Part shown: in pieces, positions 3 to 9,957 of the stretch
Numbering within the stretch: position 1 is the first letter of the stretch
How the letters are laid out: every line of letters starts with the position of its first letter
Source: Pseudomonadota bacterium
Lineage (GTDB): Bacteria; Pseudomonadota; Alphaproteobacteria; Micropepsales; Micropepsaceae
Assembly: GCA_021808875.1 (NCBI GenBank)
Contig: JAKBAU010000122.1
Coordinates: forward strand, 1 to 9,957
DNA length: 9,957 bases
Direction of reading: 5' to 3'
Notes under the pieces: model-generated
What the model was told of the DNA's origin: nothing
Seen by the model: only the letters and a program-made list of their open reading frames with translations
The model's database searches: none
Made by a program: the position numbers and the translations under genes

Positions 3-3000
3 ACGGTCATGATGCGGCTCGTCTTCCTCCTCGCGGCGGAAGAGCGCGGCCTGCTTCTCTTCGGCGATCCCCGATACGATGCGTTCTACGCGCTCTCCAG
101 CTTGCGCATGCAGTTGCGCGCCGACTCCGAGGAGATACTCGAACGCCGGCGCTCGGCCTGGTCCCGGCTGCTCGCGCTGTTCCGGGGGGTCTACGGCGGC
201 ATCGACCATCCGTTGCTGAGGCTTCCGGCGATGGGCGGCTCGCTGTTCGATCCCGACCGCTACCCGTTCCTCGAAGGGCGCAAGAAGGGAACGAGCTGGC
301 GGAACGACCCCGCGGAACCGCTGCCGATCGACGACCGGACGGTCCTGCTCCTGCTGGAAGCTATCCAGACCTTCGAAGGGCGCACGCTCTCCTATCGCGC
401 GCTCGACGTAGAGCAGATCGGCCACGTCTATGAAGGCCTCCTCGAACGCACGGTCCAGCGCGTCGACGACGTCACGCTCGAACTCGAAGGATCGGCCAAG
501 GCCAAGAATGCGCGCGTGGCGCTTGGGGAGATCGAGTCGGCGCGCCTCGACGGCGCCGCGAGGATCGTCGAACTATTGAAAGAACGGAGCGAGCGTTCCG
601 AGCCAGCCATTCGCAACGCAATCGGGCGGGAACCGGACGAACGCCTGGCGGCGCGCCTGCTCACCGTGTGTCGCGGCGACGTGGTCTTGCGCGATCGCAT
701 CCTGCCCTATGCCGAACTCCTTCGGACGGATCCGTGGGGATACCCACTGGTTCACCACGCCGGCGCCTTCGTCGTCGTCCTCGGCGCCGACCGGCGCGAT
801 AGCGGAACGCACTACACGCCCAAGAGCCTGACCGAGAAGATCGTCGAGGAGACCCTGGCCCCGATCGTCTATCGCGGCTCGGCCGAAGGCGCGGCGCGCG
901 AGGATTGGAAGCTCAAGAGCGCCGACGAACTCCTTGACCTCAAGATCTGCGACCCCGCGATGGGATCTGGCGCGTTCCTCGTGCAGGCTTGCCGCTGGCT
1001 CGCCGATCGGCTGGTGGAAGCTTGGTCCGACACGGAGACGGCGGGCGGCCGGATCGACGACGAAGGCCGCATCCGCGCCGCCAATGACACGGCCGGGTTC
1101 GAACCGCTGTCGCGCGACACCGAAGAGCGCGCCATCCTTGCGCGCCGCCTGATGGCCGAGCGCTGCCTCTACGGCGTCGACAAGAACCCGCTCGCGGTCG
1201 AACTCGCCAAGCTGTCGCTGTGGCTGACCACACTCGCCAAGGGACGCCCCTTCGGCTTCCTCGATCACAACCTGCGTAGCGGCGACAGCCTGCTCGGCAT
1301 CCATGATCTCGGCCAGCTCATCGAGCTGGACATGAAGCCGAAGGGCAAGGCGCAGCTTCGCCTCTTCGGTCGGACCATCCGGTCGGCCATTGACAAGGCG
1401 CTCGCGCTTCGCAGCCAGCTTCGCTCGATCCCCATCCGTGACATTGGCGATGTCGAGGCGATGGCCGCGCTCGACGCTCAATCGCGTAGCGAACTCGCTC
1501 TGCCGGAACTGATCGCCAACGCGCTCGTCGGCATCATCCTCACCGGAGAACGCGCCGTGAGTATTACGGCACTGGCGGCCATGGCCGACGAAGCCGCGGG
1601 GGGTGATGTCAATGCACGGACCCGCTTGTTGCAGCAGGCAACAGCCAACCTCGTGCATGACGCCCCCGATGGGGTGGCACGGCGTCCTTTCCATTGGCCA
1701 CTCGAATTTCCAGAAGTCTTTTCGCGGAACGATTCCGGCTTCGACGCAATAGTTGGAAACCCTCCATTTATGGGAGGGCGGTTGATCGGTCGTCGACTTG
1801 GAGCGACATATCAAGAATATCTGAAATTCATTCGCAACGACGTGGCCGGATCACCTGATTTTTGCGCTTATTTCTTTTTGCGTTCATTTTATCTGATCTC
1901 GCAATCAGGCGGGATCGGCTTGTTGGCGACGAAATCAATTACCGAGACCGGTTCACGGGTAGTCTGCTTTGATCAGATTGTGTCCAAGGGCGGCACCATA
2001 TACAGCGCCCTCTCCAGGCTTCCGTGGCCAGGAAACGCGGCGGTCGTTGTTTCGATCGCCTGGATCACCCGAAGCATTTGGAAGGGCAGCGTCATTCTCG
2101 ATCAGCGCGCTGTTGCTACTATCAATGGTGCATTGGAGGAAGATTTTCAGATTAAGCGACCGATGAAACTCAAGTTTTTGAAGGGAAGATTCTCACAAGG
2201 TCAGGACGTAATGGGGCGTGGTTTCGAGCTTACAGAGCACGAGCGCGCCGAAATCCTTGCCCAAGACCCCGATTGCGAACAAGTAATTCGTCCGCTCTTC
2301 AACGGGCAGGACATCGCGAATATGCCGAGCCTGAGCCCATATCGATGGGCGATATATTTCTACGATTGGCCGGAGGAGGAAGCCAGGCGCTACGAGCCAG
2401 CATTCCGACGCCTTGAAGACCTAGTGAAGCCCTATCGGGATTCTCTTACCGGCCAAATACATCAAGATTGCTTCTGGAAATTCTGGGATCTTCGCCCATC
2501 GCTGATGCGCGAATCCAAAGGTCACACCTATTTTCTAGCGTCACCGGTAGTGGCGAAATACGTAACCTTCCGACGCGTTCCGTCTCATAATGTTTATAAC
2601 CATAAGACGAAAATATATTTCCTATACGCATGGTCTGATTTCGCAATTTTGCAATCCAGCTTGCATCAGGAATGGGCATTTTGGAATTGCGCAACTCTCG
2701 GCGCATCTACGTTGAGTTATTCAACGTCGGCAGCGTTAGAGACTTGGCCAATGCCGGGATCTGGCAACGATGAACCGCTAAATCTAATTGGCCAAAAATA
2801 CCACAAGATGCGGGACAGTTTTCTCACAGAAAACGGTATCGGCCCCACGCAATTTTATAATCGCTTCCATAACCCGGAGGACAAAGACGCCCAAATCGTG
2901 GCTCTTCGAGACCTTCATCGGCAGATGGATCTGGCCGTGTTGGCGTCTTACGGCTGGCAAGATTTGGATCTTGCCCACGATTTTCACGAGATGCCTTATC

Positions 3001-3221
3001 TGCCAGTGAATGACCGGTGCCGCTTCACCCTCTCTGAACATGCCCGCCTAGCAGTCTTACGGCGATTGTCGGAACTCAATCACGAGAGATACAGCGAAGA
3101 GGTCGAGGCAGGACTGCATAAGATAGCCAAGAAAGCGGCGTCCGGGAGGAAGCGAACCCCACGAGATGTTGGCAATCTCTTCAATGCCGACACCGCCGAA
3201 GCGGAGACCGTCGATGACTGA
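3..3221 (+). CDS. drmMI: DISARM-type N6-adenine DNA methyltransferase DrmMI (5' partial)
   Basis: This is a large adenine-specific DNA methyltransferase of the Eco57I/TaqI (PglX-like) class. It would methylate host DNA with S-adenosylmethionine so that the defence complex ignores it. Numbering from the ATG at 9, motif I is DPAMGSGAFL (315-324), the acidic SAM-ribose region is GVDKNP (389-394), and the catalytic motif IV is NPPF (584-587). The order I then IV, with target recognition C-terminal, fits gamma-type N6-adenine methylases. The first visible residues (MMRLVFLLAAEERGLLL) resemble an internal helix of this family. The frame is open to the window edge, so the true start lies upstream and the ATGs at 9 and 12 are probably internal. 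At least 1072 codons are present. No PD-(D/E)xK nuclease motif is evident in the visible part. Assignment to DrmMI rather than BREX PglX or a type IIG enzyme rests on drmA and drmB downstream. Codons from about 1730 to 2910 are AT-richer than the rest. The stop overlaps the next small ORF by 8 nt. Confidence 0.85.
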   Translation, partial: TVMMRLVFLLAAEERGLLLFGDPRYDAFYALSSLRMQLRADSEEILERRRSAWSRLLALFRGVYGGIDHPLLRLPAMGGSLFDPDRYPFLEGRKKGTSWRNDPAEPLPIDDRTVLLLLEAIQTFEGRTLSYRALDVEQIGHVYEGLLERTVQRVDDVTLELEGSAKAKNARVALGEIESARLDGAARIVELLKERSERSEPAIRNAIGREPDERLAARLLTVCRGDVVLRDRILPYAELLRTDPWGYPLVHHAGAFVVVLGADRRDSGTHYTPKSLTEKIVEETLAPIVYRGSAEGAAREDWKLKSADELLDLKICDPAMGSGAFLVQACRWLADRLVEAWSDTETAGGRIDDEGRIRAANDTAGFEPLSRDTEERAILARRLMAERCLYGVDKNPLAVELAKLSLWLTTLAKGRPFGFLDHNLRSGDSLLGIHDLGQLIELDMKPKGKAQLRLFGRTIRSAIDKALALRSQLRSIPIRDIGDVEAMAALDAQSRSELALPELIANALVGIILTGERAVSITALAAMADEAAGGDVNARTRLLQQATANLVHDAPDGVARRPFHWPLEFPEVFSRNDSGFDAIVGNPPFMGGRLIGRRLGATYQEYLKFIRNDVAGSPDFCAYFFLRSFYLISQSGGIGLLATKSITETGSRVVCFDQIVSKGGTIYSALSRLPWPGNAAVVVSIAWITRSIWKGSVILDQRAVATINGALEEDFQIKRPMKLKFLKGRFSQGQDVMGRGFELTEHERAEILAQDPDCEQVIRPLFNGQDIANMPSLSPYRWAIYFYDWPEEEARRYEPAFRRLEDLVKPYRDSLTGQIHQDCFWKFWDLRPSLMRESKGHTYFLASPVVAKYVTFRRVPSHNVYNHKTKIYFLYAWSDFAILQSSLHQEWAFWNCATLGASTLSYSTSAALETWPMPGSGNDEPLNLIGQKYHKMRDSFLTENGIGPTQFYNRFHNPEDKDAQIVALRDLHRQMDLAVLASYGWQDLDLAHDFHEMPYLPVNDRCRFTLSEHARLAVLRRLSELNHERYSEEVEAGLHKIAKKAASGRKRTPRDVGNLFNADTAEAETVDD
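1730..2910 (+). other. AT-richer segment in the presumed target-recognition half of drmMI
   Basis: Base composition changes inside the methyltransferase gene without breaking the frame. Hand counts of single 60-nt lines give 41/60 GC at 961-1020 (motif I region), 26/60 at 1861-1920, 19/60 at 2581-2640, and 35/60 at 3001-3060. The AT-richer part begins close to the NPPF catalytic motif and covers the region where Eco57I/TaqI-type enzymes carry their target-recognition domain. The edges are approximate. Likely explanations are replacement of the specificity domain by recombination from a lower-GC donor, or relaxed codon use in a fast-diversifying domain. Confidence 0.6.
3203..3207 (+). promoter_or_regulatory. 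Shine-Dalgarno for the mini-ORF at 3214
   Basis: GGAGA lies 6 nt upstream of the ATG at 3214, inside the last codons of the methyltransferase gene. Motif and spacing are good for a ribosome binding site, which is the main reason for taking the following 23-codon ORF seriously. Confidence 0.45.
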
Positions 3222-3285
3222 CACCACCGACGCAGCGGTTGATCTCAACCTGCTCGCACGTCTCAAAGAGAGGGCCTGCCGATGA
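3214..3285 (+). CDS. 23-residue mini-ORF bridging drmMI and the GHKL ATPase gene
   Basis: An ATG at 3214 opens a 23-codon frame starting MTDTTDAAVDLNLLARLKER and ending at the TGA at 3283-3285. It overlaps the methyltransferase stop by 8 nt, and its own stop overlaps the ATPase ATG as ATGA, the usual termination-reinitiation arrangement. A GGAGA lies 6 nt upstream. It may be a coupling leader that passes ribosomes to the ATPase gene, a small protein, or the surviving N-terminus of a gene lost by deletion. A frameshifted N-terminal extension of the ATPase is less likely, because the ATPase has its own good ribosome binding site. I recognise no family. Confidence 0.35.
   Translation: MTDTTDAAVDLNLLARLKERACR
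3265..3274 (+). promoter_or_regulatory. Shine-Dalgarno for the GHKL ATPase gene
   Basis: AAAGAGAGGG ends 7 nt before the ATG at 3282. It supports that start over an alternative initiation further upstream and lies inside the mini-ORF. Confidence 0.55.
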
Positions 3286-4697
3286 CGAAACCCACCAACG
3301 ATCAGGCACAGGCCAGCCCGACCAAACGGTTCTTCGTGTCGATGCTGACGCGCGACATCAACCTCGCCGACGCGATCCTCGACCTTCTCGACAACTGCCT
3401 CGACGGTGCGCTCCGGTTGGCAGACGGCGGCAACGTCGATTATGCGCAGCATTTCGTGAAGATCGAGCTCGCCGCCGATCACTTCTCGATCGAAGACAAT
3501 TGCGGGGGCATTCCGCGCGAGGTCGCGAAGAACTACGCGTTCAAAATGGGCCGCGACACAGACGATGACCGCGACTCCGACACCGAGACCATCGGCATGT
3601 ATGGCGTGGGAATGAAGCGTGCGATCTTCAAGATGGGTCGCGAGGCGCTGGTGCGGACCCGGTATGATGAAGATACATTCGAGGTGCCAATCACCTCTGC
3701 CTGGCTCGACGCCAAAGGCTGGGATCCGCTGCCGATCAACGAGCCGACCGAGGCCAGCGAGAAGCTCCCCGAACCCGGCACGGTGATCTACGTCCGCGAA
3801 TTGTATGAGGGCGTCTCCAGGCACTTCGCCAACGAAGCATTCGAGAACGAGGTTCGCACCGCCATCTCCGAGCACTTCACGATGTTCCTCCAATGGGGCT
3901 TGCAGGTGACGCTCAACGGCAAACCCGTGGAGCCGGTGCTCGTCGAAGTGCTCGTGTCACCGCGCGAGGATGGACCCGCTCCGTTCGTCTTTCAGAAGAC
4001 GATCGACGATGTGATCGTCTCGATCACCGTCGGCCTGAACACCGGACGCAGCCTTGGCAACGACGATGAGGACGACTCGGGTTTTGAGCGCGATCGGTCT
4101 TCTGCGACAGCCGGCTGGACGGTGCTCTGCAACGATCGCGCTGTGATCGTCGGAGATAAGAGCCGGCTTACGGGCTGGGGCGACGGGATCCCGCTGTACC
4201 ACCCGCAGTTCGCCATCATCACCGGCATCATCGAGTTCCGTTCCAAACACGCCGACAAACTACCGGTCACGACGACGAAGCGTGCACTCGATACCTCGTC
4301 GAACGTCTGGCTCGAATCTTTGGTGAAGATGAAGGAGGGTATGCGAGTCTGGATTTCGTACACGAACCAGTGGAAGAACCATCCGCGTGTCGATCAGTCG
4401 AACTATTGGGAGGATGCGCGCCCGCTTCCGTTGACCAGGGCGATTGCGGCGGTTGCCTCGCGTACCACAGCCAAAATCTCTGACGGCCAAATCGAGTTCA
4501 ACCCGCAGAAGGCCAAGGTCCTCCCCGAACCGCCGGGGAAGACGCCGTCGTCGCGGAGGATCGTGTTCTCGCGGCCGATCGAGGAAATACGCCTCGTCTC
4601 GAAGATGTTGTTCGACGTCGATGACGAGAAGCCGGGCATCGTCGGTGAGAAATGTTTCGAGCTGACGTTCACCAAAGCCACGAAGCAGGACGGCTGA
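3282..4697 (+). CDS. GHKL (Hsp90/MutL/MORC-like) ATPase, DISARM-associated
   Basis: This 471-residue soluble protein has an N-terminal Bergerat-fold ATPase domain. The N box is DLLDNCLDGA (34-43), with N38 as the Mg-binding asparagine. The G1 box is DNCGGI (72-77) and the G2 box is GMYGVGMK (105-112). GHKL proteins dimerise on ATP binding and act as conformational clamps or switches. Residues around 200-335 could be an S5-like transducer domain, with VTTTKR (329-334) placing K333 where MutL, gyrase and Hsp90 relatives carry a phosphate-contacting basic residue; this is inference. Two points are odd. The usual catalytic glutamate of the N box is aspartate (D34), and the ATP-lid region (91-104) is strongly acidic, as is a second stretch near 260-272. 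No histidine-kinase dimerisation helix, membrane segment or signal peptide is seen. The gene lies between drmMI and drmA, where I know of no standard DISARM component, and ends 3 nt before the next gene. Its role is unknown; an ATP-gated sensor or clamp is plausible. Confidence 0.85.
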   Translation: MTKPTNDQAQASPTKRFFVSMLTRDINLADAILDLLDNCLDGALRLADGGNVDYAQHFVKIELAADHFSIEDNCGGIPREVAKNYAFKMGRDTDDDRDSDTETIGMYGVGMKRAIFKMGREALVRTRYDEDTFEVPITSAWLDAKGWDPLPINEPTEASEKLPEPGTVIYVRELYEGVSRHFANEAFENEVRTAISEHFTMFLQWGLQVTLNGKPVEPVLVEVLVSPREDGPAPFVFQKTIDDVIVSITVGLNTGRSLGNDDEDDSGFERDRSSATAGWTVLCNDRAVIVGDKSRLTGWGDGIPLYHPQFAIITGIIEFRSKHADKLPVTTTKRALDTSSNVWLESLVKMKEGMRVWISYTNQWKNHPRVDQSNYWEDARPLPLTRAIAAVASRTTAKISDGQIEFNPQKAKVLPEPPGKTPSSRRIVFSRPIEEIRLVSKMLFDVDDEKPGIVGEKCFELTFTKATKQDG

Positions 4698-4700
4698 GAC

Positions 4701-5696
4701 ATGAGCGCCGGATCTTCACTTCCGTACCGGCTGAGGCCCAACAAAGCAGTCGACAGGGAATTGTTCCTGTCGCTGCTGATGCGGTTGACTCCCTCGCTCT
4801 CGCTTGAAAATTACCAGTACGTCGGGCTCGGCGGTCCCTTTCTCGAAGACTTCAGATTGGTGCATGCCCGGCTTGGTCTCAAGCGAATGGCCTGCGTCGA
4901 AACGGAGCAGGAGGTCCACAAACGCCAGCTCTTCAATCGACCGATCGCTTCGATCGAATGCGTCCATGCGACGCTCGAAGACTATCTGGACGGGCACGAC
5001 TTCGAGGCGCCGGCGATCATATGGTTCGACTACACCGAGCCGAAGGGCATCACCACGCAGATCGAACGCTTCGCGCGGACGATCGGCACGGTTCCGCTCG
5101 GGAGCGTGCTTCGAGTGACGCTCAACGCCAATCCAGAATCTCTCGGAAAGCCGAATGCCAACGAGGTCTCCGTTGAGATTGACGACGTAGCCTCCAGTGA
5201 TCGTAAGGAAAGGCCGACCGTACAGGAGTGGCGGCTTGCCCGTTTCAAGGAGCGGGTTGGGCAACTTTTCCCGAGCGGATTGTCCGCTGACGGCATGACG
5301 CAGAAGCGCTTCGGTTTTAGCGTGCTCCGCGTTCTCAAGCTGGCGGTCGAAAAGGAAGCGCTCAACTTCCGTGATCGCCGGATCGTGTGGGCACTGGCCA
5401 CGCATTACAAAGACGGTCAGGCGATGGTGACGGCAGCACTCGTAGTCTGTGCTGCCGACAACACCGCCATCGAAGAACTCGTGAAGGGATGGGAGTTCTA
5501 CTCGACGTCGGATTCGCCCCATCGTCTCGACTTGCCAGCCCTTTCGACCTTGGAGCGTTTGACCATGGAGTCGAGCGACGATGTTCGGGCGAAGATGACC
5601 TTCGAACTGCCCAAGTCCGACATGGGCGAGGATCCATTTTCGGTTTTCAAGAAGTTCTACCGTATCTACCCGCATTTCTCGCGCGTCGAGCTGTAG
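4701..5696 (+). CDS. Unassigned protein with Rossmann, methyltransferase-like N-terminal half
   Basis: I do not recognise a named family for this 331-residue protein. The N-terminal half has the pattern of a class I SAM-dependent methyltransferase: a strand ending in a glycine-rich turn (YVGLGG, 40-45), a helix, a second strand ending in acidic residues (CVETE, 65-69), and a hydrophobic strand ending WFDYTEPKG (108-116), with D110 at the motif IV position. No NPPY/DPPY motif is present, so it is not an ordinary N6-adenine or N4-cytosine methylase, and no PC motif suggests a C5-cytosine enzyme. The C-terminal half (about 170-331) shows no motif I can place. No signal peptide or membrane segment is seen. 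It starts 3 nt after the ATPase stop with a weak AGGA at 4687-4690, and ends 19 nt before drmA. That spacing suggests it works with the GHKL ATPase. It could be an active small-molecule or protein methyltransferase, a degenerate SAM or nucleotide sensor, or an effector subunit. Confidence 0.75.
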   Translation: MSAGSSLPYRLRPNKAVDRELFLSLLMRLTPSLSLENYQYVGLGGPFLEDFRLVHARLGLKRMACVETEQEVHKRQLFNRPIASIECVHATLEDYLDGHDFEAPAIIWFDYTEPKGITTQIERFARTIGTVPLGSVLRVTLNANPESLGKPNANEVSVEIDDVASSDRKERPTVQEWRLARFKERVGQLFPSGLSADGMTQKRFGFSVLRVLKLAVEKEALNFRDRRIVWALATHYKDGQAMVTAALVVCAADNTAIEELVKGWEFYSTSDSPHRLDLPALSTLERLTMESSDDVRAKMTFELPKSDMGEDPFSVFKKFYRIYPHFSRVEL

Positions 5697-5715: not shown

Positions 5716-8700
5716 ATGACCACGACTGCCGATCCAGAAATACAAGGATGGCTTGCAAAGGAACCGACCTGGCTCGGCCCATGCATCCTGCAACTCGACG
5801 GAGAGCGTTCGACTTTCGCGGCGGTCGAAGACGGGCACTGGATCGTCGTAGCTGGAGTCGACGGCGGCCTGAAGAGTGTCGGGCGCATTCTACGGATACG
5901 CTCCGATCTTGCGAACACGACGATCTATTTTGACCGGCTGCATTCCTTTCGCACGCCGGGATCGGCGTCCGACGTCGGTTTGACGCTACCCGCCGGCCCC
6001 ATTGGACGCCTCCGTCCGGAAGACCTCGCGACCATCTTCGCTCTGGGCGGTATCTCTCCGGCTTCCGTGCCGCTCATCCAGAACGTCACCTACGTCCGCA
6101 ATCTGCTCGAATTGGCAGTCCGCGACGATCTCCTCGGTCCGGCGGGTGGCCCGCACGAGCTGATCAAGGACATGAGCGTCCGCGATCGCTATCTGGTCGG
6201 GAAGCTCGCGCCACGCCGGCCGGGTGACGGCGAGACGACTGCCGTCGAGCCGGCGGCGGCGGCAGACGAGGTCGGCGACATTGAGGATGAGAGGGCGGCG
6301 TCCATTCACGAACCGGGCGCCGAATTCGCGAGTGCTTCCGGCCGCGTGGAGCCGGAGGACGATGCCCTCGACGAAATCGACACCACGAACAATCAATCGC
6401 TCGTGCCATCCAGCCTCGGGCTGACCTTCTGCGTCGCATCAGGCGTGGAGTCGCTCTCCGTCGATGTTCGGTGGGGATGCTACGAGCGTGTCCCGAGCGA
6501 CGAGCATGACATCGTCAAAACCCGGAAGAACCGGGCGACTGGCAAGGAGGAAGCGACCAAGGTCAAGGTGTGGCGGCGCATCCCGTGTGGCGGAATCGTT
6601 CCCGTACCACTGAAGGACGGGCCGATAAGGCCCTCGACGCCCGACCGTGACCAGCCCGACGTCAGGCTGCAAGGCGCCGTCCGGACAAACGACCAGGGGG
6701 AACGCCTCATCACCTTGTTTCTCGTGAACGGCCAATTGGAGCCCGAGGACAACAAGGACCGTGCTTGGCTGTTCCAGCCGGAGATCTCCGTGACCCCGCC
6801 GGAAGGCGCTGCGGACAAGGCGATTTTCAGGCGACGCCCGTCCAATGAAATCGTCGTCGACGATCCGGAGCGCGATCGCTTGGCCCTGATCTACCGCAAT
6901 CGGCTGGAGTTCGCCGTCGGCCACGGCGTGTCGGTCCACGCCGACACGATGCCAGAAGATTCCGGGAAGGCTTGGCGGATCCGCACGGAGATCATTCCGC
7001 GCTACGAGATTGCCGTGACGGAGACGCCGGGCCTCGACCCCGACGACCGCCCGGCGATGCGTCGGATGGTCGATGAAGGTTGGCTCGACATGAGTCGCCT
7101 TGCGGAATTGGAGCCGCAGGCGCTGCGTGATGCCCTGTCATGCCTGGTCGACGACTACGCCGTCTGGATCGAGGAGCGACGTGCGCGGCTGAAAAGCGAG
7201 ATCACCGGCTTCGACGAGCCGGGGCGAGACGTGATCGCCCGCTGCGAGGATACCCTGCGCCGTCTTCGCGAGGGGATGAGCACGCTCTTTTCCGATGATG
7301 CGGCCTTGTCGGCATTTCGCTTCGCCAACAGGTCCATGGCGCTCCAGCGCGTGCGGAGCCTCTATGCCCTCAAGCGCAGGCGGGGCGAGGCAGCGGACGT
7401 AGCGCAGCTCGACATCCCCAGGAATAGATCCTGGCGTCCCTTCCAATTGGCCTTCCTCTTGTTGTCGGTGCCTTCGCTCGCCGACCCGGCGCATCCCGAT
7501 CGAACGAAACCCGTGGAGGCCTTCGCCGACCTGCTGTGGTTCCCGACGGGTGGCGGTAAGACCGAAGCCTATCTGGGCGTGGCCGCCTTCGCCATGGCGA
7601 TGCGTCGGTTGAAGAACGACCTCGGCGGGCTCGACGCCTCGCGTGGCCTCGCCGTGATCATGCGCTACACGCTGCGCCTCCTTACGCTGCAACAGTTCCA
7701 GCGTGCGACCGCTCTGTTGTGCGCGATGGAAGTGATCCGTCGCGGGGACGAAAAGACCTGGGGCAAGGAACCCTTCTCGCTGGGATTGTGGGTTGGCAAT
7801 AGGGTGACGCCGGGCCGAACCGAAGACGCTCACCAGGCGATCGAAGCGCTGCGCAACGGTGATCGAAATCGCGCCGGCATCTCATCGCCGGCGCAATTGA
7901 CAAGTTGCCCTTGGTGCGGCTCGGAGATCTCTGCGGGTCGCGACATTGAGGTCGACAGAATCGTCGGTCGGACCCTCATCCATTGCGGGGACAAGCTCGG
8001 CACCTGTGAATTCTCGCGAGCCGGCTCCAGCAGGCTCGCCCACCCCGGTTTGCCTGTGAAGGTGGTCGACGAGGAAATCTACCATCGTCCCCCGACGATG
8101 ATGATCGCGACCGTCGACAAGTTCGCCATGATGGCCTGGCGGCCAGAAGTCCGTAACCTCTTCGGTCGGGTCGACGAAGAATGCGAGCGTCATGGCTTGC
8201 TCTGGCCGCGGCACGATTGCGGCACGGGGCATCGCGCGCGCGGCTCGCATCCCGCAGCGAAGGTGAAGCAGGTTCGCACCCTGCGGCCCCCGGATCTCAT
8301 CATCCAAGACGAATTCCACCTCATCAGCGGCCCGCTCGGCACCATGGTCGGCCTCTATGAGAGCGCCGTCGACGAACTGAGCACTTGGCCCCTCGGTGAC
8401 ACGAAAGTCAGGCCAAAGGTGGTGGCTTCCACTGCCACCGTCCGGCGCGCCGAGGATCAGGTGCGCAACGTGTTCATGCGGCGCATCTCTGTCTTTCCGC
8501 CCTCGGGCCTCGACGTCGAGGACAACTTCTTCTCGGTCCAGCGGCCCATCGAAGAGAAGCCCGGCCGCCGCTACATGGGCATATGCGCGCCCGGTAGCTC
8601 TCGCCCCGCGGTGCTGATCCGGACGTACACGGCCTTCCTCACCGCGGCGCAAGCACTCTTCGATCGTTTCGGTCCGGTCGCCGATCCGTACATGACGCTG

Positions 8701-9693
8701 GTCGGCTACTTCAATTCACTGCGCGAGTTGGGCGGAATGAAGCGCCTCGCCGAGGACGACGTTCAGACGCGATCCTTCCGCGTGAGCATGAGCCTCGTCG
8801 ATCGGCCAGGTTTGTCGCAGCGGCGCGTCGATGACGTCCGCGAACTGACATCCCGTGTCTCCAGTCACGACATCCCGCGCTATCTCGATCAGCTCGAGAT
8901 CCCCTTCAATGGGACGTTCGATTCCGGGATAGGGAAATGGGCAGAGCATCGCGCTCCAGGCGACCCGCGCCCGATCGACGTCGTTCTGGCGACCAACATG
9001 CTTTCGGTCGGCGTCGACGTGAGCCGTCTCGGTGTCATGGTCGTCAACGGCCAACCGAAGGGGACGGCGGAATACATCCAGGCCACCAGCCGCGTGGGAC
9101 GCACGCTGCCGGGCTTGGTGGCCACCGTGCTCACCTGGGCGCGCCCGCGTGATCTCTCACACTACGAGACGTTCGAACACTATCACGCGACCTTCTATCA
9201 GCACGTCGAAGCCCAGTCCGTGACGCCATTCTCGCCGCGGGCGTTGGACCGTGGTCTCACGGGGGCGATGCTGTCGATCATCCGTAACACTTATGACCCT
9301 TTCGCGCCGAACACGGGCGCGGGCGCGATGAATAGCCCGAGCCGGCCGGAAATGACGGCGACAATCGGCGCCGTAGCCGACCGGACCTGGGAGGTCACGG
9401 AGGATTCGACCAAGAAGGCACTGATCGAACGGGAACTGAAGCATCGCGCGGACGACTGGGCCAAAGAAGCCGGCGTGGGAGGCCGCACGCTCGTCTATCA
9501 AAAATATGGGGCAGGCCCGACGGCGTATCCGCTCCTGGAAGCTCCGGGCGTGAAGCCGTGGACAGACTGGACGGTCCCGATGTCCATGCGTGAGGTCGAA
9601 CCCGGTGTGAGGCTGGTGATGGAGGACTCTCGCTCGACGAGCGATCCATCCTGGCGCGCGCGCGTGATCCCGGCGAATGGGGGCGAGGCGTGA
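5716..9693 (+). CDS. drmA: DISARM helicase DrmA
   Basis: This is a 1325-residue superfamily 2 DExH helicase. In DISARM, DrmA forms the core complex with DrmB, binds DNA and is needed for phage restriction. The N-terminal region (about 1-165) leads to an acidic, Ala-rich linker (170-223), then a probable beta-rich domain (about 225-400) and a helical, arginine-rich region (about 455-575). The motor motifs are Walker A FPTGGGKT (609-616), Walker B DEFH (865-868), motif III STAT (905-908), a motif V region around TNMLSVGVD (1093-1101), and motif VI QATSRVGR (1122-1129) with R1126 and R1129 as arginine-finger candidates. All key residues look intact. Between Walker A and DEFH is an insert of about 250 residues with cysteines C731, C734, C757 and C764 in a zinc-ribbon-like pattern, and a second Cys/His group (C823, H833, C835, H839). 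The gene overlaps drmB by 4 nt. The drmB neighbour makes DrmA far more likely than an unrelated DEAD/DEAH helicase. Confidence 0.92.
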   Translation: MTTTADPEIQGWLAKEPTWLGPCILQLDGERSTFAAVEDGHWIVVAGVDGGLKSVGRILRIRSDLANTTIYFDRLHSFRTPGSASDVGLTLPAGPIGRLRPEDLATIFALGGISPASVPLIQNVTYVRNLLELAVRDDLLGPAGGPHELIKDMSVRDRYLVGKLAPRRPGDGETTAVEPAAAADEVGDIEDERAASIHEPGAEFASASGRVEPEDDALDEIDTTNNQSLVPSSLGLTFCVASGVESLSVDVRWGCYERVPSDEHDIVKTRKNRATGKEEATKVKVWRRIPCGGIVPVPLKDGPIRPSTPDRDQPDVRLQGAVRTNDQGERLITLFLVNGQLEPEDNKDRAWLFQPEISVTPPEGAADKAIFRRRPSNEIVVDDPERDRLALIYRNRLEFAVGHGVSVHADTMPEDSGKAWRIRTEIIPRYEIAVTETPGLDPDDRPAMRRMVDEGWLDMSRLAELEPQALRDALSCLVDDYAVWIEERRARLKSEITGFDEPGRDVIARCEDTLRRLREGMSTLFSDDAALSAFRFANRSMALQRVRSLYALKRRRGEAADVAQLDIPRNRSWRPFQLAFLLLSVPSLADPAHPDRTKPVEAFADLLWFPTGGGKTEAYLGVAAFAMAMRRLKNDLGGLDASRGLAVIMRYTLRLLTLQQFQRATALLCAMEVIRRGDEKTWGKEPFSLGLWVGNRVTPGRTEDAHQAIEALRNGDRNRAGISSPAQLTSCPWCGSEISAGRDIEVDRIVGRTLIHCGDKLGTCEFSRAGSSRLAHPGLPVKVVDEEIYHRPPTMMIATVDKFAMMAWRPEVRNLFGRVDEECERHGLLWPRHDCGTGHRARGSHPAAKVKQVRTLRPPDLIIQDEFHLISGPLGTMVGLYESAVDELSTWPLGDTKVRPKVVASTATVRRAEDQVRNVFMRRISVFPPSGLDVEDNFFSVQRPIEEKPGRRYMGICAPGSSRPAVLIRTYTAFLTAAQALFDRFGPVADPYMTLVGYFNSLRELGGMKRLAEDDVQTRSFRVSMSLVDRPGLSQRRVDDVRELTSRVSSHDIPRYLDQLEIPFNGTFDSGIGKWAEHRAPGDPRPIDVVLATNMLSVGVDVSRLGVMVVNGQPKGTAEYIQATSRVGRTLPGLVATVLTWARPRDLSHYETFEHYHATFYQHVEAQSVTPFSPRALDRGLTGAMLSIIRNTYDPFAPNTGAGAMNSPSRPEMTATIGAVADRTWEVTEDSTKKALIERELKHRADDWAKEAGVGGRTLVYQKYGAGPTAYPLLEAPGVKPWTDWTVPMSMREVEPGVRLVMEDSRSTSDPSWRARVIPANGGEA
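6223..6384 (+). other. Acidic low-complexity linker within DrmA
   Basis: DrmA residues 170-223 are rich in Ala, Glu and Asp, with a run of four alanines and several acidic pairs and few large hydrophobics. This looks like a flexible linker between the N-terminal region and the following beta-rich domain. The reading frame is continuous. Confidence 0.5.
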
Positions 9694-9957
9694 GCAAGAC
9701 ACCCGTAGGCGAAGTCCGCCCCAGCCAACTTCTTTGGACCTATGGCCCCGGTGCGCTGATTGATCTGCCCAATCTATCGGTGGTCACGATGGGGACCGAC
9801 CGTTGGGAAAGGGACAGGTGTCAGCCCATCCAGGAGGCGCGGTTGCTGGCGAACGTCCGGAGTGTTCTTGGACCTCAGGTGGAGTCGTTGCGGATGCCGC
9901 CGATCGGCGAGCGTGACGTCGTCGATCCATTCTCACCTGCCGCCCTGATCGGTGTGC
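9690..9957 (+). CDS. drmB: DISARM protein DrmB, N-terminal part (3' partial)
   Basis: A frame starting at GTG 9690 overlaps the drmA TGA by 4 nt (GTGA) and stays open to the window end, giving 89 codons. The product has RPSQLLWTYGPGALIDLPN near the N-terminus (residues 10-28), which I recognise as typical of DrmB proteins of the DUF1998 family, followed by the strand VVTMGTDRW. DrmB is the partner of DrmA; the DrmA-DrmB complex is the DNA-binding core of DISARM. The DUF1998 domain would lie further downstream and is not visible. The start choice rests on the conserved motif being only about 10 residues in, on the overlap with drmA, and on a GGGGG at 9679-9683, 6 nt upstream. The overlap suggests translational coupling and balanced subunit synthesis. 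Confidence 0.88.
   Translation, partial: MSKTPVGEVRPSQLLWTYGPGALIDLPNLSVVTMGTDRWERDRCQPIQEARLLANVRSVLGPQVESLRMPPIGERDVVDPFSPAALIGV

Follow-up and report, generated by a model that had tools for sequence, protein, structure and literature searches.

The stretch of DNA analysed here, hereafter the window, comprises the 9,957 nucleotides of contig JAKBAU010000122.1 (assembly GCA_021808875.1), from an alphaproteobacterium of the family Micropepsaceae. It carries five co-directional genes on the + strand: drmMI, a gene for a GHKL ATPase, a gene for a Methyltransf_35 protein (hereafter MT35), drmA and the start of drmB. The first and the last two belong to a class 1 DISARM (defence island system associated with restriction–modification) operon, and the GHKL and MT35 genes between drmMI and drmA (genes 1 and 2) form the pair considered here. 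This pair recurs at the same place in other DISARM operons, is absent from empty sites in related operons and has a history decoupled from that of the drm genes; its first protein bears a MORC-type signature, its second has a class I fold, and nearly all its stand-alone copies lie beside a cytosine methyltransferase gene (dcm). The pair is a mobile unit, the usual companion of which outside DISARM is a cytosine methyltransferase. At about even confidence, we favour its interpretation as an exchangeable cassette of a restriction-like module linked to cytosine methylation, plugged between drmMI and drmA of a dcm-bearing class 1 DISARM lineage.

The gene pair within class 1 DISARM operons

Class 1 DISARM consists of drmD, drmMI, drmA, drmB and drmC. 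The DrmMI, DrmA and DrmB proteins of the window (Table 1) are those of such a system. DrmMI matched its PADLOC profile with 1352 bits, over positions 284–1334 of 1347, although a general type IIG model outscored this profile (1566 bits). Its reading frame is open from the start of the window, with the first ATG at position 9, and its 5' part precedes the window. DrmA also matched PADLOC DrmA (1512 bits), and the 89 visible residues of DrmB scored 82 bits, under the full-length NCBIfam cut-off of 240 because the gene runs off the window. The PADLOC and NCBIfam matches confirmed the initial annotation of this DNA, which had placed the pair between drmMI and drmA, followed by drmB, all on one strand. 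The gaps of no more than 19 nt that it reported hold for three of the four junctions (3 nt between the GHKL and MT35 genes, 19 nt between MT35 and drmA, and a 4-nt overlap of drmA and drmB), but not for drmMI and the GHKL gene, which are 60 nt apart. The proposed check of the flanks for drmD and drmC led beyond the window; both genes were found in relatives, in the same order. Neither gene of the pair had a PADLOC match at E values up to 1, in agreement with the statement that neither is a listed DISARM component.

A scan of genome_contigs returned 29 loci, 26 of which were embedded in DISARM with drmA downstream, a proportion that cannot be extended to the family at large because the alignment used was made of gene 2 relatives 76–100% identical to the window. 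Two of the 26 (L006 and L031) begin at a contig end, with no upstream drm genes visible, and the L031 stretch covers just the end of MT35. The embedded loci span three phyla (Pseudomonadota, Myxococcota and Planctomycetota). Their typical order is dcm-vsr-drmD-drmMI-(GHKL-MT35)-drmA-drmB-drmC, with dcm coding for a C5-cytosine methyltransferase and vsr for a Vsr endonuclease, and this order is annotated in full, from dcm to drmC, on the Microvirga terrae plasmid NZ_CP102847. With these 26 loci and this plasmid, the arrangement is not confined to a single genome.

The operons therefore resemble class 1 DISARM in their drm genes, of which the window shows drmMI, drmA and drmB and the relatives also drmD and drmC, and in the order of these genes, but differ from it in the two extra genes between drmMI and drmA and, in the relatives, in the presence of dcm-vsr before drmD. 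Among embedded loci with a visible upstream side (extended flanks), dcm was present in 23/23 and vsr in 19/23, nearly always at the 5' end of the operon; in L017, dcm-vsr is located after drmC rather than before drmD. With dcm as well as drmMI, the operons of the relatives carry both an adenine and a cytosine methyltransferase. The dcm product of L001 matched PADLOC DrmMII best (288 bits), closely followed by a general type II methyltransferase model (281 bits). In L018 (3917–8281), drmMI directly follows dcm, with no drmD match in the 18-kb stretch examined.

From the operon packing, the initial annotation argued that the two genes are functional parts of DISARM. The pair would then be an integral, co-adapted part of a subtype, acting as an ATP-switched sensor or regulator of DrmAB. 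This explanation is favoured by a constant location: the pair lies between drmMI and drmA wherever an embedded locus shows both neighbours, across the three phyla. However, some operons are more loosely packed: in five embedded loci (L011, L015, L022, L026 and L029), an additional 1.2–4.3 kb flanks the pair on one side. The extra gene of L015 (11006–12211, between MT35 and drmA) encodes an AspBHI-like protein, the catalytic domain of which is of the Mrr type (PADLOC methyl-directed REase II, 500 bits), and that of L022 (10968–12167), also between MT35 and drmA, resembles the L015 copy by eye. L011 has an extra gene between drmMI and the GHKL gene (6671–8506; PADLOC candidate PDC-S39, 855 bits; DUF7380 and DUF4209), and L029 has about 4.3 kb between MT35 and drmA (10951–15242), with two large open frames of 385 and 742 aa.

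Empty sites and decoupled histories

Two related operons, L082 and L125, lack the pair. Their best segments are 85% (drmA), 90–91% (drmB), 89–91% (drmD) and 66–75% (drmMI) identical to those of Microvirga, and in both the drmMI frame stops 2 nt ahead of the drmA start, leaving a clean empty site. Conversely, the pair differs between operons with similar drm genes. L024 has a drmA 89% identical to that of the window, with a GHKL protein no more than 72% and an MT35 no more than 71% identical to those of any other locus. L027, which was left out of the neighbour count by a 900-nt flank rule, has a drmA of the L013 type (89%) but a pair of the L026 type (86–90%). By windowed identity, the exchanged stretch lies between the variable half of drmMI and the MT35 end and, in L024, reaches the first 60 codons of drmA. 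GC content falls to 0.51–0.53 at window positions 2000–3500, over the C-terminal half of drmMI, compared with about 0.60 for the pair and 0.64 for most of drmA; this dip would fit an exchanged target-recognition half.

The first 60 residues of L024 DrmA are of the L026 type (87%), as if they had been swapped along with the pair, and this observation favours a dedicated subunit. In L027 and L013, however, the pair changed without the DrmA N-terminus, which argues against both a dedicated subunit and an N-terminus that always travels with the pair. A comparison of DrmA from L010 (with the pair) and from L082 and L125 (without it) gave 37% and 31% identity, respectively, over the first 100 columns, 79% and 78% over the second 100, and 86–100% beyond. 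Pfam returned nothing useful for this N-terminal part, and we discarded an EVE-like reading of it, since HHalign against a two-sequence EVE-HNH/HNH set gave a probability of only 44.5. We also rejected a tie between the pair and the target-recognition half of DrmMI: the pairs of L001 and L010 are 87–96% alike, and the last two quarters of their drmMI genes are 51% and 33% alike.

Distance correlations over 18 common loci separated two blocks. The first contains dcm, vsr, drmD, the first half of drmMI, drmA and drmB (r 0.85–0.99, and 0.96–0.99 among drmD, drmMI, drmA and drmB); the second contains the GHKL and MT35 genes (r 0.89). Correlations across blocks were 0.26–0.55, with values of 0.35–0.55 for the pair and the drm genes. 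The pair was therefore not co-inherited with the drm genes, and the histories of the two are largely decoupled. As dcm-vsr follows the drm genes in these distances, we dismissed the idea that it belongs to the pair inside DISARM; instead, the pair there seems to rely on the dcm of the backbone. The GHKL tree rejected a single clade of DISARM-embedded copies (approximately unbiased test, p 2.95e-6), with four changes on the best tree, two of them forced by starred branches. Stand-alone L028 is nested at starred forks and stand-alone L019 at unstarred forks; a long-branch warning applies to the distant rows of this tree. The existence of related operons without the pair, its decoupled history and the close relatives that stand alone (L019, L025, L028 and L032) thus speak against dedicated DISARM subunits, an explanation that we consider unlikely, though the best placed of the alternatives.

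Occurrence outside DISARM

Three of the 29 scan loci have no drmA: L019, near an integrase gene, L025, from Ciceribacter, and L028, from a metagenome-assembled genome of Desulfuromonadales. In all three, the pair stands alone with dcm, although the L019 sequence stops 210 nt past MT35 and its downstream side is only partly visible. An HNH_2 gene lies ahead of dcm in L028 (6697–7245), and an HNH_2 protein with an EVE match below the cut-off adjoins another stand-alone GHKL-MT35-dcm set (L131, complement of 11867–12799).

A search of viral contigs with the GHKL alignment returned 48 loci (28–68% identity). Within 4 kb of the GHKL gene, MT35 was present in 45/48 and dcm in 47/48, and drmA, drmB and drmMI were absent from all 48; a search of the same contigs with a single MT35 sequence (P0156) returned no relative. 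Each gene was inspected in ten phage loci, comprising PfAC20 and nine of the 48. Their cargo is just GHKL, MT35 and dcm, with no other non-overlapping frame of at least 85 aa among the three genes. In PfAC20, dcm is co-directional, whereas the other nine have a convergent dcm. Pfam recognised no nuclease among ten flanking frames from eight of these loci; seven of the ten match no family, so an unknown nuclease is possible. In a 59-locus neighbour set, P2-type terminase, portal and replication-A families (representatives named by Pfam) lay within about 5 kb of 14, 15 and 11 loci, respectively, and one homologue of the pair sits in a filamentous phage. The P2-like phage KL3 has been described with a module of methylase, Vsr and restriction enzyme (PMC3091744). 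A megablast search of E. coli genomes with one phage cassette returned no match.

In bacterial genomes, PF20553 was found in 5/398 (phylum of G001), 2/289 (class of G001) and 3/369 (class of G003) genomes; these counts include the centre genomes G001 and G003, which were picked for having the pair and are excluded below. At the PF20553 loci of the six non-centre genomes (G101, G208, G309, G352, G438 and G859), there was no tblastn match of drmA, drmB or drmMI in stretches of 8–21 kb (weak SNF2-type drmD matches in L133, 55 bits, and in the viral locus L033, 59 bits, were left out of the DISARM calls), and dcm was present in four of the six. A genome-wide DrmA search covered all of these genomes except G859. 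In the G859 locus (L138), the MT35 gene of the GHKL-MT35 set contains an in-frame stop, and dcm had no match over a 16-kb stretch; the protein next to the set matches AAA and, just under the cut-off, DndE. DISARM_DrmAS scored above the family cut-off in 6/398 and 4/289 genomes of the G001 phylum and class, respectively, and none of the eight non-centre genomes above this class 1 cut-off has PF20553 (G519, G484 and G544 were classed by drmA score alone). In this sample, and from the two empty sites, the pair is not a standard component of class 1 DISARM. Among 72,556 plasmid records, drmA matched in 85, GHKL in two and MT35 only in that of Microvirga.

The inference from operon packing to a dedicated DISARM part is thus not supported, in view of the DISARM-free viral and non-centre loci sampled from the wider family, the eight class 1 genomes without PF20553, the two empty sites and the decoupled history. 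The initial annotation had also held that a pair lying mostly away from DISARM would tell against its proposal; this is the case in the samples of the wider family, but not among close relatives of the window, most of which are embedded.

The stand-alone loci with dcm, and a phage cargo limited to three genes in the ten loci inspected, favour an independent hitchhiker, a complete defence module that occupies the operon but does not interact functionally with DISARM. We consider this somewhat less probable still than dedicated subunits, as all embedded loci use the same place and the dcm-vsr of the operon tracks the drm genes rather than the pair, which seems reliant on it. It is rather improbable that the pair is phage cargo for counter-defence or DNA protection (e.g. 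masking phage DNA with dcm) later taken up by bacteria. Many homologues do lie in temperate-phage contigs, near terminase, portal and replication genes, but the pair is retained in bacterial DISARM operons under purifying selection and prokaryotic MORCs are otherwise mainly parts of restriction systems, according to PMC2292703. As the pair also travels in phages and chromosomes beside dcm, it seems to be an undescribed module capable of joining larger defence systems.

The two proteins, related systems and a possible mode of action

Table 1. Coordinates of genes, motifs and other features in the window
Feature	Position	Strand	Evidence or remark
drmMI, MmeI-like adenine methyltransferase, class 1 DISARM	9..3221	+	PADLOC DrmMI PDLC02643; Eco57I, MmeI_Mtase and MmeI_TRD domains
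Gap between drmMI and the GHKL gene, 60 nt	3222..3281	.	Open reading frame coordinates
GHKL+S5 ATPase with prokaryotic MORC signature, 471 aa (cassette gene 1)	3282..4697	+	HATPase_c_3, E 2e-9
N box, D34-L-L-D-N38	3381..3395	+	D34 and N38 invariant in 33 rows; MORC4 alignment
ATP-binding motif, D72-N-C-G-G76	3495..3509	+	Invariant in 33 rows
MORC-family S5 motif GhXhhpXXRhl, residues 278–288	4113..4145	+	36/36 rows; 0.44% of shuffled sequences
S5-domain lysine loop, T331-T332-K333	4272..4280	+	Invariant in 33 rows
Methyltransf_35 (PF20553), class I SAM-methyltransferase fold, 331 aa (cassette gene 2)	4701..5696	+	E 3.3e-82
Motif-I-like stretch, Y40 to D50 (putative)	4818..4850	+	Y40 and D50 invariant, G44 nearly so, in 35 rows
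Motif-IV-like W108-F-D110-Y111 (putative)	5022..5033	+	W108 invariant, D110 and Y111 nearly so, in 35 rows
drmA, class 1 DISARM YprA-family helicase, 1325 aa	5716..9693	+	NF038325 DISARM_DrmAS, 1455 bits (cut-off 950)
N-terminal part of DrmA ahead of the DISARM_DrmAS match	5716..6093	+	Match begins at residue 127; fast-changing zone adjoining the cassette
Start of drmB (DUF1998 protein), runs off the window	9690..9957	+	NF038324 (DrmB_fam), E 4e-23

By its sequence, the gene 1 product is a MORC-like protein, with the GHKL ATP-binding motifs and the S5 motif of prokaryotic MORCs. In addition to the residues listed in Table 1, G108, G110 and K112 are invariant across 33 aligned GHKL rows. The lysine of the T331-T332-K333 loop is presumably, by comparison with other GHKL proteins, the ATP-sensing lysine. 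The S5 motif that unites the MORCs was defined by Iyer, Abhiman and Aravind (2008; PMC2292703). For gene 1, the ATP-switched clamp proposed in the initial annotation is a reasonable hypothesis, in keeping with the MORC signature and the fold. The best 120 database homologues are 79–96% identical over 96–100% of the length. The ratio of nonsynonymous to synonymous substitutions (dN/dS) was 0.07–0.14 for both genes in six comparisons, with saturated dS in two of the MT35 comparisons; both cassette genes are thus under purifying selection, and the pair is not a product of chance, given this identity and these ratios.

The gene 2 product has a Rossmann methyltransferase fold of the class I S-adenosylmethionine (SAM)-dependent type, and its binding of SAM and transfer of methyl groups are putative, based on the conserved motif-I-like and motif-IV-like residues. 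A PDB sequence search with MT35 gave nothing credible. Its best structural neighbours by Z score are RsmD-like and Trm1 RNA methyltransferases, and we did not retain the name O-methyltransferase used by Pfam, although this evidence is weak either way.

The general setting of gene 1 is already known, since Iyer et al. (PMC2292703) placed prokaryotic MORCs in laterally mobile restriction systems, with cytosine methylases, Vsr and SF2 helicases. The pair resembles these systems in its GHKL+S5 protein, MORC motif and neighbours. It differs from them in that neither the MT35-like partner nor DISARM nor the exchange appears in the accessible text of that paper, and in that the phage versions inspected here have no separate recognised endonuclease alongside. 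VcSduA (PMC12137116), a Shedu protein with an N-terminal GHKL domain, experimentally shown to defend against phages, is unlike the pair because its GHKL domain is fused to the nuclease, a layout termed paraMORC3 there. Mza resembles the pair in a weak match of PADLOC MzaB to one distant GHKL homologue (L134, E 0.006), but neither window protein matched it at E values up to 1. On the plasmid of Deinococcus sp. AJ005 (L089, 18539–22248), a class 1 DISARM lacking the pair is immediately followed by vsr, dcm and a gene for an ATP-binding protein; unlike the cassette, this set is placed after drmC, its 664-aa protein matches PADLOC REase_II, and there is no tblastn match of MT35. On the Sphingomonas parapaucimobilis plasmid NZ_CP155757, a type I-E CRISPR-Cas system has drmD, drmMI, drmA and drmB between its cas3 and casA genes (L091, 2197–23426), a case of DISARM inside another defence locus.

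The HEF_HK/Response_reg_2 systems (Bellieny-Rabelo 2021, PMC8011034) have a parallel layout, with a HATPase_c_3 protein, a partner gene, a C5 methylase and Vsr, but it is rather improbable that the pair likewise senses a signal and controls the expression of methyltransferase or restriction genes, as MT35 is methyltransferase-folded and no window protein had a Pfam-A match to HEF_HK (PF19191), HisKA or Response_reg_2 (PF19192) at E values up to 1.

PF20553 and Methyltransf_35 were not mentioned in the literature searched. In agreement with the initial annotation, which had presented the arrangement as possibly undescribed, searches for DISARM with GHKL, Vsr, DrmMI/DrmMII or subtypes gave no description of it as a DISARM module among the matches listed, with supplements and most subscription papers outside their scope. 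The accessible text of Bell 2025 (PMC12458937) and Bravo 2022 (PMC9142583) does not describe it, and GHKL is absent from the main text of the former. The GHKL-MT35-dcm module is likely to be a new object. Bravo 2022 found the DrmAB ATPase to be stimulated by unmethylated DNA and less so by DNA with 5-methylcytosine, and proposed that DISARM may combine parts borrowed from other systems. By analogy, these results would fit the cassette, though they were obtained with a different operon.

Several points weigh against the pair being an exchangeable cassette of a cytosine-methylation-linked module. The genome_contigs scan favours a DISARM-linked subfamily, because its patterns came from close relatives. 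L125 retains vsr and dcm before drmD without the pair, and the bootstrap range of r(GHKL,MT35) minus r(GHKL,drmA) over 25 loci is wide (0.07–0.66). Only eight of the 48 viral loci have vsr within 4 kb; one (L033) has no dcm, three (L075, L076 and L078) have no MT35, and the non-centre loci L133 and L138 have no dcm. For gene 1, Foldseek ranking by E value placed Hsp90/TRAP1 chains first, SMCHD1 fifth and MORC2 45th, and MORCs led only in a second look with VIA, with Hsp90 within 2 Z units. In the alignment to MORC4, the Glu of the N box is replaced with Asp (D34), so ATP hydrolysis by the GHKL protein is uncertain. The role in phage defence, the mode of action and a contact with DrmAB are what we infer.

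For the cassette, the following mode of action may be envisaged. The MORC-like protein would dimerise on ATP into a clamp closing on DNA, and the MT35 partner would bind SAM and either modify DNA, RNA or the complex, or sense SAM. Cytosine methylation by dcm would distinguish the cell's own DNA from incoming DNA. A clamp closed on phage or plasmid DNA that lacks this mark would not reopen; it would block replication or transcription or, alternatively, pass its substrate on to a nuclease or helicase (Vsr or, in DISARM operons, DrmAB). Within DISARM, the adenine-based check by DrmMI would thereby be joined by a second one, based on cytosine, and cassette exchange would alter sensing, leaving the helicase core untouched. 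A bolder version, to which we assign a low probability, is that GHKL(MORC)-MT35-dcm is a nuclease-free system of three genes resembling restriction–modification, in which dcm would mark self with 5-methylcytosine and a MORC clamp, licensed by its SAM-binding partner, would trap and silence unmarked foreign DNA without cutting it. Class 1 DISARM with dcm would then plug in this clamp as an interchangeable cassette for both sensing and trapping.

The case of the window illustrates how defence systems mix by cassette, as a DISARM core (with dcm-vsr) and a MORC-methyltransferase pair with largely separate histories have been joined at one fixed place. It also draws attention to a small module of three genes, as yet unnamed and shared by phages and bacteria, with PHROG families of unknown function and no PADLOC match, and gives bacterial MORC ATPases a defined, tractable system. 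Bacterial MORC ATPases are the proposed source of the eukaryotic MORC proteins (PMC2292703), and a nuclease-free clamp, if real, would be a bacterial counterpart of the silencing of mobile DNA by eukaryotic MORCs.

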